From: Alicyclobacillus sp.
Lineage (GTDB): Bacteria; Bacillota; Bacilli; Alicyclobacillales; Alicyclobacillaceae
Assembly (NCBI GenBank): GCA_023511725.1
Contig: JAIMAY010000026.1
Coordinates: forward strand, 1 to 37,580
Length of the DNA: 37,580 nucleotides
Direction: 5' to 3'
In this document: positions 6,063 through 8,709 of the stretch, in pieces
Position numbering within the stretch: the stretch's first letter is position 1
Layout: the number at the start of each line of letters is the position of its first letter
Notes under the pieces: model-generated
What the model was told of the DNA's origin: nothing
Seen by the model: only the letters and a program-made list of their open reading frames with translations
The model's database searches: none
Translations under genes and position numbers: made by a program

Positions 6063-6072
6063 ACGGCGGAAT

Positions 6073-6093
6073 GGGGCGGGGAGATCCCGCCCC
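6073..6093 (+). terminator. Hairpin after asnO
   Basis: GGGGCGGG-GAGAT-CCCGCCCC forms a perfect 8-bp GC stem with a 5-nt loop, beginning 10 bp after the asnO stop. The downstream tract TCGCTCTGT is only partly T-rich, so termination efficiency is uncertain. Confidence 0.6.
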
Positions 6094-6129
6094 TCGCTCT
6101 GTACGTACATGGGGTGTAGGAACCGAAAA

Positions 6130-6825
6130 TCAAACGGCCTCAGCCTTTCTTCCGAATGGTCTGATGTAAACATGACTATCGCCTGCCGAACACCATCCCA
6201 TCACGTTGCCGAACGCATAGGGCAACCCCCCTGTGCCCAAATCCACTTGTTCATGGGACGCCAGGAAATATACATGAACACCGGGACCATCCGGGCCTGA
6301 TTCATCACTCCACGTGACATATCCATCCCCGACATCCCAGAAAAATGGGGAGTCCGCTACGAGCGTGACCGTTTTGTGTGTGGACATATCATATACGTCT
6401 ATTTCAGTACGGAGGGCATCTTTGTTCGCCTGCGGAGAATACGCGACGTTGTCCGCGTTAATCTTGGGCCAGGCGAAGGGTCCTTCCACAGAGGTGATTG
6501 TCTGTCGCTTCTTTGTGGCAAGGTCCAACACCACAATCCTGCCTCGCCAAGCGTCGAGATCACTTTCCTCCCAAACGAGGGTTCTACCGTTGGTGTACGG
6601 CGCCGGCGTGATATCACTGTTCACATGAGCTAGGCTCGTGGTCTCCATTCGACAGAGATCCGTTACCTTGATGTCAGACACACGGGGTGTCGATGGAAGG
6701 CTCCAGTAGAGCGTGTCGCCTCGCAAAAACGCCCAAGGGGGGTTCGTGTGCACAGGAGTACTGAATCGGCTCACCAAAGTGGTGCGGTCCGTTGTTCGAT
6801 TGTAAGCAAAAATAGAATAGTATCC
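6130..6825 (-). pseudogene. N-terminally truncated TolB-like beta-propeller protein
   Basis: The minus-strand frame encodes about 230 residues with repeated propeller-blade signatures such as GRIVVLDLATKK, TEIDVYDMSTHK and GDGYVTWSDESG, typical of TolB/WD40-like domains. A TTG at 6775-6777 could start a 215-residue ORF, but recognisable protein (SIFAYNRTTDRTTLV) continues upstream of it without a start codon until the frame runs directly into the 52-bp repeat array at 6826. No ribosome binding site is seen. The N-terminal blades and any signal peptide are therefore missing. I read it as the 3' remnant of an extracellular or envelope propeller gene cut by the repeats. Its ligand is unknown. 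Confidence 0.7.
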
Positions 6826-7254
6826 GGCGCGATCGCGCCCCCGGCGGGGCGGATAAGCCGGATTTCCCCGCTTATATGGCGCGCCGGCGCCCCCGGCGGG
6901 GCGGATAAGCCGGTTTTTCCGCCTTATCTGGCGCGATCGCGCTCCCTGCGCGGCGGATAAGCCGGATTTTCCCGCTTATATGCCGCGCCGGCGCCCCCGG
7001 CAGGGCGCATAAGCCGGTTTTTCCGCTTTATCCGGCGCGATCGCGTCTCCTGCGCGGCGCATAAGCCGGTTTTTCCGCCTTATGTGGCGCGATCGCGCCC
7101 CCGGCAGGGCGGATAAGCCGGTTTTTCCGCCTTATCCGGCGCGCCGGCGCCCCCTGCGCGGCGGATAAGCCGGATTTCCCCGCTTATATGGCGCGCCGGC
7201 GCCCCCGGCGGAACGGATAAGCCGGATTTTCCCGCTTATGTGATGCGATCGCGG
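6826..7254. repeat. Tandem array of eight 52-bp repeats plus partial ninth
   Basis: Units start at 6826, 6878, 6930, 6982, 7034, 7086, 7138 and 7190, each exactly 52 bp with no spacer, and a degenerate partial unit runs to about 7254. Each unit has three parts. The first is a GC palindrome in two versions, GGCGCGATCGCGCC (units 1, 6 and, over its core, 3, 5 and 9) or GGCGCGCCGGCGCC (units 2, 4, 7, 8; unit 4 starts GC). The second is a variable C/G-rich linker. The third is a hairpin such as GGATAAG-C-CGG-TTTTT-CCG-C-CTTATCC. Because 52 is not a multiple of 3 the array is not coding. It is not CRISPR. It separates the truncated propeller gene from decayed transporter genes. Confidence 0.95.
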
Positions 7255-7424
7255 CCTTGTCCTCACTGCTGTTTGCACGCTACAGTCACTGGAAAAACAG
7301 ACCGCGCAGTGATTCCTCAGTTTGCAAAATCCATGGACGAACACGAACACGCGGTCCCTGTAACGCCAAAACGCCACACGTTCCTTCACGGCAGATATTT
7401 CCCGTATTATGAGAATTTTCTTGA

Positions 7425-7580
7425 ACCATTGGGTCCAATATCCGCTGGACGCGCCCACTGTTTGCCGTGCGCGAGCTCGCCAACTCGTGCCACATCGGCC
7501 ACGACTTCGCGATCTCCCTCCTCGGCGCGGCCACTATCGCCCTCGTGTTCGCACCGCTCGCGGTCCGGGTGTACATGTGA
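7425..7580 (+). pseudogene. C-terminal remnant of an ABC-2 type permease
   Basis: After an in-frame stop at 7422 the frame reads about 50 residues ending at the TGA 7578-7580. The segment PLFAVRELANS followed by a hydrophobic helix (ISLLGAATIALVFAPLAVRVY) resembles the last cytoplasmic loop and final membrane helix of ABC-2 family export permeases. There is no start codon, ribosome binding site or upstream permease domain, so this is a fragment. The 7255-7424 stretch before it holds no gene I can support, although LSSLLFARY near 7260 might be another scrap. Recognition rests on a short segment. Confidence 0.5.
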
Positions 7581-7699
7581 AGGCGTGACTCGAGTTTTGA
7601 CAAAGTGGCCCGCGATCAACCCGTGGGCCGGGGTGGCTGTGGTTGGTGCCCGCGGGACCTGTCGCACACCGGTACGGGATCACCAGACCCAGAAGGAAG

Positions 7700-7709
7700 T
7701 TGTATACAA
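7700..7709. promoter_or_regulatory. TTGTATACAA palindrome upstream of broken MFS gene
   Basis: A perfect 10-bp palindrome lies 45 bp before the GTG of the decayed MFS gene, followed by ACGTGTAGTATC, which partly repeats it. Such TGTATACA-type dyads are typical of GntR-family (YtrA-like) operators. No regulator gene is present in the window. It could be a leftover operator of the dead transporter. Confidence 0.3.
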
Positions 7710-7754
7710 TACGTGTAGTATCTTGCAAGCAGTCCGCGGCATGAGGGTGATCAG

Positions 7755-8500
7755 GTGACGACACCGTACCTCAGACCGAGAAGACGGCTGTTCAAAGCCA
7801 TCATGATTTTGAATTTTAGTGCCAGTTTGGCGATTTTTGCCCCGATTGGCCTGCTCCTCACCCTGAAGTTGAACGGGATTGACCCGGCGCACCTGGCGGT
7901 GGCGATCAGCCATGCGACGGGGCTGGGAGCACTTGTCGCTCTCTTCATGAACCCCATCGCCGGTGCCATCTCCGATAGGACCCCTTGGCGATCCGGCAAG
8001 CGGCGCACCTGGATGGGTTTCGGCGCCAACAACGCCCTCGTCGCAGATCAGGTCCCCACCGAGGAGCGCGGCACAGTGTCCGGAGCCGTCGGGCTGGTGT
8101 CCAACCTGGCCATCTTCGCGGGGATGGGCTTAGTGAATCTGCTCAACCACGCGGGTGATTTGTCCCAATGGGGAGCTCTGGCGGCGGTGGGTGTCGCAGG
8201 GGCTGGGACGGCCATCGTGCTCATTCGCGATACGCCAGCCTCTCGTCGGCCGGGGACACATCGCAGAGGAGCGCTCGGCAAGGTGTGCCCCCACCCGCGA
8301 AAGGATCCGTCATTTTACTGGGCGTGGTTGGCCAGGCTACTGTTCCGCTGTTCCTCGGGTTTGGCGGTTATCCGGCTTTCTTCGGGTTCCTGGCATTGCT
8401 CGGTCTGCTCGGCGGCGTGGCCATTCTGCCGGTCCCGGACCATCGACAGACCCTGGCCATAACCACCACAGGCGCAGGTTGCGGTGCGAAGCGGGGCTGA
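7755..8500 (+). pseudogene. Degraded MFS transporter
   Basis: The frame opens with GTG at 7755 and encodes the first membrane helices, the loop AGAISDRTPWRSGKRRTW and, immediately after WMGFG, the ANNALVADQVPTEERG segment. In intact MFS proteins helices 3 and 4 separate these two, so about 50 residues are deleted in frame. After residue 165 or so the protein sense is lost, and a terminal helix (LFLGFGGYPAFFGFLALLG) reappears in another frame ending at 8500. The second half is mostly missing. At least one internal deletion and one frameshift make it non-functional. The substrate is unknown. DnaA-box-like sites lie just downstream. Confidence 0.75.
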
Positions 8501-8533
8501 CCTGCGGGTCAAACGCCGTGCGCGGGCCGTAAA

Positions 8534-8598
8534 GAATCCACAACCTGTGGATAAATCTGTGGATAACCTGTGGGCAATACTGTGGAATCTGTGGACAA
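8534..8598. promoter_or_regulatory. Cluster of DnaA-box-like sequences
   Basis: Two perfect consensus boxes TGTGGATAA (reverse complement of TTATCCACA) lie at 8546-8554 and 8558-8566. Near matches follow in the same orientation: TGTGGGCAA (8569-8577), TGTGGAATC (8581-8589) and TGTGGACAA (8590-8598). A 7/9 match in the opposite orientation, GAATCCACA, lies at 8534-8542. Spacings are 9-12 bp, close to one helical turn. The cluster lies between the dead MFS gene and a bidirectional terminator, with no dnaA or dnaN in the window. Candidate roles are a DnaA-binding cluster outside oriC or a relic of an origin. Confidence 0.7.
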
Positions 8599-8606
8599 CA
8601 TGCACG

Positions 8607-8635
8607 AAAGCCCGCCGAAACCCTCGGCGGGCTTT
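8607..8635. terminator. Strong bidirectional terminator
   Basis: AAAGCCCGCCGA and TCGGCGGGCTTT form a perfect 12-bp stem around a 5-nt loop (AACCC). The arms start with A-runs and end with T-runs (TTTCCCTTCTT on the plus strand), so it can serve both the decayed plus-strand MFS gene and the minus-strand MFS gene that converges on it. Confidence 0.85.
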
Positions 8636-8709
8636 CCCTTCTTGATGCACGATGAAACGGTGCGTGTCACCAAGCTGGGGCACGGCCGTTGGGACACCGA
8701 GACGACCGT

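Follow-up and report, generated by a model that had tools for sequence, protein, structure and literature searches.

The window is a stretch of 37,580 nucleotides from an Alicyclobacillus sp., contig C76 of a 2.66-Mb genome assembled in 76 contigs (97.7% complete). At its left edge, a tRNA (positions 1 to 77) is truncated by the contig end. Positions 6063 to 8709 form a long gene-poor stretch surrounding a tandem array, which consists of eight head-to-tail 52-bp units without spacers and is closed by a ninth core (6828 to 7253). The asparagine synthase encoded upstream of the array has its nearest named homologues in Alicyclobacillus cellulosilyticus (75%) and in an Alicyclobacillaceae MAG (74%). 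An ORF beside the array (6130 to 6777) exhibits no Pfam match, and a shortened MFS gene is found at 7755 to 8462. The array comprises the following features.

6828..7253, strand +: array of eight 52-bp units plus a ninth core, orientation taken from the T-run
6829..6836, no strand: first linker core, GCGATCGC; cores recur each 52 bp, GATC or GCCG in this array, with more variants genome-wide
6853..6875, strand +: palindromic centre of unit 1, ATAAGCCGGATTTCCCCGCTTAT, supported by column conservation; recurs each 52 bp as far as 7239
7217..7239, strand +: palindromic centre of unit 8, ATAAGCCGGATTTTCCCGCTTAT
7245..7252, no strand: last core, GCGATCGC, which ends the array

A first-pass annotation of the window had described a spacer-free array of eight 52-bp units, and both a unit-by-unit reading and TRF (period 52 with 7.8 copies; also 104 with 4.2 copies) confirm it. 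The same annotation had the cores alternate between GATC and GCCGGC. The three-base swap of ATC for CCG is as described, but the nine cores run GATC, GCCG, GATC, GCCG, GATC, GATC, GCCG, GCCG, GATC, and are thus mixed rather than strictly alternating. Nor are there two interchangeable cores only: the 137 core 4-mers of the genome are GATC (63), TGCG (17), CGCG (11), GGCG (6), GCCG (4) and others (36). The dyad GGATAAG...CTTATCC is approximate, its left arm being literal in six of the eight window units (GCATAAG in the other two) but its right arm in one unit only. Each window unit does carry one C.C mismatch, at either of two neighbouring stem positions (columns 22/34 read CC in four units and CG in four). 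The claim that this mismatch is kept does not extend to the genome, where the same columns read CC in 86, CG in 29, GC in 29, GG in 20 and other combinations in 13 of the 177 units.

These 177 units, 172 of them distinct, came from the search of the remaining genome that the annotation had called for. They occupy 27 places, namely 25 arrays with a minimum of three units each and two lone units. A covariance model returns at least 150 matches in this genome, all within the known places (the best 150 of 1525 candidates). The unit of the family is a 23-bp interrupted palindrome, ATAAGNNGG-nTTTn-CCNNCTTAT (columns 17 to 39, most positions above 90%), followed by a drifting GC-rich linker of constant length. 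Identities within and between arrays are 0.88 and 0.83 for the centre, and 0.71 and 0.56 for the linker. A second subfamily, present at five places (on C29, C11, C75, C50 and C5), is 78% alike to the main one in the centre and 39% in the linker. Of 150 intervals between units, 137 measure 52 bp, the remainder being 51 (five), 53 (five), 62, 104 and 156 bp, and every array that has two intervals or more, 25 in all, has a modal spacing of 52. The sole larger insertion among the intervals measures +10 bp, one helical turn, which we mention as an anecdote only.

All 27 places lie in predicted intergenic DNA. The annotation had judged the array to be neither coding nor CRISPR, and both judgements are supported: zero genes are predicted inside any of the places (gene calls around them are from a home-made codon-usage predictor), and the linkers, 71% alike within arrays, are not unique spacers. 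Tandem units at many intergenic loci, here 27 places, are what characterises a dispersed intergenic minisatellite. The flanking genes are of mixed metabolic function (36 of the 40 proteins scanned have a Pfam family, 4 have none); among these 40 we found one DDE transposase, no recurring neighbour function and, in a scan confined to the flanks, no cas genes. The 19 places with both flanks known include eight co-directional, six divergent and five convergent gene pairs, and arrays occur in both orientations between co-directional genes. Several arrays are at contig ends; most of the 27 places are inside contigs.

The preservation of the dyads had been taken to suggest selection on a DNA or RNA structure or on protein binding. 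Constraint on the palindrome is evident, but the stem as a selected structure finds no support in the window genome. Stem positions are paired in 85.4% of cells against 86.4% after shuffling, with 481 of 500 shuffles scoring at least as high, and columns 22/34 pair below chance (44 of 137 against 55). Array-consensus linkers from the 27 places exhibit no excess folding relative to shuffles (mean z +0.62), and neither do the linkers of 20 Paenibacillus curdlanolyticus arrays (mean z 0.03; these arrays are described below). As single strands, individual units do fold better than their dinucleotide shuffles (three units of the window genome gave z from -1.5 to -4.0, in a set of four folded strands) because each unit holds a palindrome. 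Given a stem without compensatory change and linkers folding no better than shuffles, we conclude that the hairpin is not the entity kept in the window genome. An RNA hairpin was accordingly rejected as the conserved entity there, the contrary observations being the single-unit folds and a stem pair in P. curdlanolyticus. The data agree better with an inverted repeat that is recognised by its sequence and held at a fixed spacing. The core had also been said to stay palindromic. Its axis (GCGC-NNNN-GCG) is indeed self-complementary in 117 of 137 units, being AT, GC or CG in nearly all of them, against 51 after shuffling, but the count reflects a few ancestral variants, through which the axis is mostly retained.

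The search among relatives, likewise proposed by the annotation, gave a negative answer. Neither DNA nor model searches detect the unit in any of 58 other genomes of the order, none of the same genus, among the matches listed; copy numbers and absences from such searches are to be read as bounds. A strict pattern of the centre matches 100 times in the window genome and 0 times in 397 other Bacilli. There is no exact match to it in GTDB contigs or viral contigs, and no match to the window array among PLSDB plasmids; a phage or plasmid origin was rejected on the viral and plasmid results. With the pattern ATAG...TTT...CTAT, no other genome among 398 stands far above its reversed-pattern control (the top one, G391, has 31+31 against 13+25). 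Three genomes of the window genome's family (G001, G031 and G004) contain repeated ATAG...CTAT palindromes, in pairs 63, 149 or 189 bp apart.

The layout is found elsewhere with other sequences. Noncoding arrays of 51 bp were met in two of 80 named loci fetched for another reason. P. curdlanolyticus YK9 harbors at least 40 arrays with a 51-bp period. At 20 of its loci 151 of 161 intervals measure 51 bp, and the mode is 51 in 19 of the 20 arrays, one having 50. The centre, about AATAGGGCAGATTTTTATGCCCTATTC, exhibits identities of 0.90 within and 0.815 between arrays. For the 24-bp linker the values are 0.81 and 0.40, so that the linkers of different arrays are nearly unrelated and nevertheless keep the 51-bp mode. 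One stem pair clearly covaries in this species (147 of 181 paired, against 94 shuffled), which fits a hairpin too. Cohnella panacarvi has about ten places with a 51-bp unit; at six loci 48 of 48 intervals measure 51 bp, with within/between identities of 0.92/0.86 for the centre and 0.89/0.47 for the linker. A T-box leader is located near one C. panacarvi array (L273, 2672 to 2926). Two genomes of the same family as the window genome, G020 and G018, exhibit at least 33 and at least 27 matches, respectively, to a 53-bp unit. Their autocorrelation peaks at 53-54 bp in six of the seven loci checked (of 20 fetched) and at 55 in the seventh. This version is diffuse, neighbouring monomers being 35-41% identical in five of the six peak loci. 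Loci L234, L237, L242 and L248 of these two genomes exhibit higher-order repeats of 277, 393 and 426-428 bp made of diverged 53-bp monomers, resembling the higher-order satellites of eukaryotes.

Other long periods occur as well. Arrays of 30, 48, 61, 63, 72 and 84 bp, some of which may be coding, are present in 1.03 Mb of sequence (60 stretches, 55 Bacilli genomes); one of them (L209, 14965 to 15427, in G040) has 7.5 copies of 61 bp, about six helical turns. Seven Paenibacillus-type loci (L118, L120, L122, L101, L117, L128 and L131) contain tandem arrays of 39-44 bp, palindrome-bearing where inspected, which make up a further period class. Because arrays of 39-44, 61 bp and other periods occur, the layout is sporadic and the 51-53 bp period is not universal.

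In P. curdlanolyticus the arrays are oriented with respect to replication. The array list retains 49 of 66 matches, leaving out 17 weaker ones over or beside listed arrays (ten of these are on the opposite strand because of self-complementarity), and each array takes the orientation of its strongest match. On this basis 40 of 40 arrays share one direction with respect to replication. Each of the eight contigs with more than one array has them all in a single orientation (p about 1.2e-7 for random orientation). Judged by GC skew, the strand bearing the T-run is the C-rich one in every stretch (20 of 20, on 17 of 17 contigs), even in three whose genes mostly run opposite. This is stricter than usual for known oriented motifs. 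A gene-context table merged by hand assigns 31 distinct arrays, those with context, to 12 convergent, 11 co-directional and 0 divergent gene pairs, eight having an unresolved flank. C. panacarvi agrees in each of the 6 arrays whose flank skew was measured, two values being weak owing to short flanks. In the window genome such a bias is absent (14 of 26, with one ambiguous array excluded), and the counts read by hand are 13 or 14 of 20 for G020 and 7 of 13 for G018. Orientation is therefore not part of the general design.

The annotation knew of no named family for the array, and our comparisons with REP/RAYT, STAR and Rfam found none that matched. No Rfam family exceeds its gathering score on the array, the highest score being 28.6 bits where 77.5 are required. 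The annotation had also noted that the octamer GCGATCGC is that of cyanobacterial HIP1. The octamer is the same, but here it is confined mainly to the arrays, with 64 copies inside against 5 in 205 kb outside. As 4.5-7.2 copies are expected outside, it is not a genome-wide feature, and a HIP1 or methylation reading was discarded. GATC itself is over-represented outside the arrays (1112 against 678 expected by base composition, in 205 kb of the window genome). Mycobacterial MIRUs are units of some 50 bp, arranged head to tail and scattered among intergenic regions. Our arrays resemble such minisatellites (VNTRs) in all these respects, and differ in their genome-wide palindromic centre, in their array-specific linkers of fixed length, and in a layout that recurs in other lineages. 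The arrays also have the repeat-linker look without spacer diversity of the tandem repeats mistaken for CRISPRs and of STAR-like elements, and would be filed as tandem repeats or unknown in the scheme of PMC5294841. The portion of that source available to us gives neither a function nor a layout rule. Its STAR-like signature, T[GAT]TGTTG[GT]GGCCC[CA], is present in 0 of 21 stretches, and a STAR-like identity was rejected. Within our literature coverage, which leaves out most subscription journals, such arrays were not found described in these genera; the consulted part of the P. vortex genome paper (PMC3012674) gives a total of 231 tandem repeats and no details of the units.

The window array is best explained as one copy of a lineage-specific dispersed bacterial satellite. 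The centre is kept genome-wide, the linker drifts and is homogenised within each array, the unit length is constant, and the layout recurs elsewhere with other sequences. We further propose, at slightly less than an even chance, that the palindromes of these satellites are sites, helically phased at five turns, for a putative DNA-binding protein whose existence and function we infer. A dimeric protein would recognise the centre, and the 52-bp step, equal to five helical turns of 10.4 bp, would present successive dimers on the same face of the DNA. Such dimers might polymerise, bend or bridge DNA, making some 25 docking platforms around the chromosome. The arrays may grow and homogenise via unequal recombination or slippage, with selection on the bound array retaining centre and spacing. 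The beneficiary could be the host, through chromosome organisation, or the repeat itself. Length constancy is moderate evidence for a selected spacing. At the indel/substitution ratio found within arrays (0.010-0.017), the probability that an array keeps its length is 0.91 in the window genome and 0.78 in P. curdlanolyticus; assuming a ratio of 0.05 lowers these values to 0.62 and 0.48. The constancy is thus only mildly surprising at the in-array ratio, and would be a strong argument if the ratio were taken to be 0.05 or higher.

The signature of a protein-docking array is also what would be expected from a mobility or amplification enzyme that reads the centre. The main rival is accordingly a selfish or neutral satellite without host function, its arrays spread by amplification or transposition machinery that recognises the centre; we consider this possible, though rather unlikely. 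It agrees with the restriction to one lineage (0 of 58 other genomes of the order among the matches listed, 0 of 397 other Bacilli), the mixed neighbours, the array-specific linkers, the two lone units and the lack of an orientation rule in the window genome. It lacks, however, a candidate enzyme. The Y1 (RAYT-type) transposase family PF01797 has 0 matches in the 97.7% complete window genome, the control being positive in 5 of 14, and is also absent from P. curdlanolyticus and C. panacarvi; a Y1 transposase is thereby excluded as the amplification machinery in three of the five carriers. Taken alone, a selfish satellite also leaves unexplained the fixed linker length, and likewise the periods of 51, 51, 52 and 53 in separate lineages. 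The same missing transposase bears on REP/BIME elements dispersed by RAYT, which our arrays resemble as short, GC-rich, extragenic palindromes in high copy; the P. curdlanolyticus arrays even avoid divergent spacers, as REPs tend to according to the part of PMC3733652 consulted. The arrays differ in lacking both a RAYT and a terminal tag (of 177 units, 1 has GTAG and 14 have CGTC next to the palindrome) and in having a strict head-to-tail period fixed at 51-53 bp. E. coli yields no match to one 104-bp query from the second subfamily. A REP/RAYT identity was rejected on these grounds, and we regard dispersal of this kind as highly improbable.

If the arrays act instead as RNA, they would be transcribed multi-hairpin stretches serving as 3' ends, in mRNA stability or as sponge RNA. 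Single-strand folds exceeding shuffles, the covarying stem pair of P. curdlanolyticus and the absence of divergent flanks there (0 of the 23 arrays whose two flanks are known) speak for this. The window genome speaks against it, with no stem covariation, six divergent places among the 19 with two known flanks, and both orientations between co-directional genes; nor does any Rfam family match. Overall, we find an RNA role improbable. A replication-linked chromosome marker, such as a translocase-orienting site or a lagging-strand hairpin, would account for the uniform contigs and stretches of P. curdlanolyticus (8 of 8 and 20 of 20) and for C. panacarvi (6 of 6), yet it fails as a general rule for the window genome (14 of 26), as for G018 (7 of 13) and G020 (13 or 14 of 20), and is very unlikely. 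The arrays found at contig ends could hint at an assembly artefact or a CRISPR remnant, but with 172 of 177 units different, most places inside contigs and linkers repeated within arrays, this has almost no credibility.

Bacterial chromosomes are generally regarded as having little satellite DNA. What the window alone could not reveal is that its array is one of about 25 and that the design recurs elsewhere. That separate Bacilli have one layout in common but different sequences suggests that they share a selective rule, combining site sequence and helical spacing. A broader conjecture, which we put forward as speculative and would not yet bet on, is an unnamed class of satellites in Bacilli. 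Such genomes would carry tens of intergenic arrays, in each of which a lineage-specific palindromic protein site would recur at about five turns (51-53 bp), kept in step by a linker fixed in length but free in sequence. A co-evolving DNA-binding protein would polymerise on them into chromosome-organising filaments, the Paenibacillaceae arrays also having a single orientation with respect to the replication fork. The consistent orientation of the P. curdlanolyticus arrays (40 of 40) with replication is open to direct test. Arrays of the same design but different sequence in distant relatives suggest docking arrays for a putative DNA-binding protein, and the recurring layout perhaps implies that this protein evolves fast.
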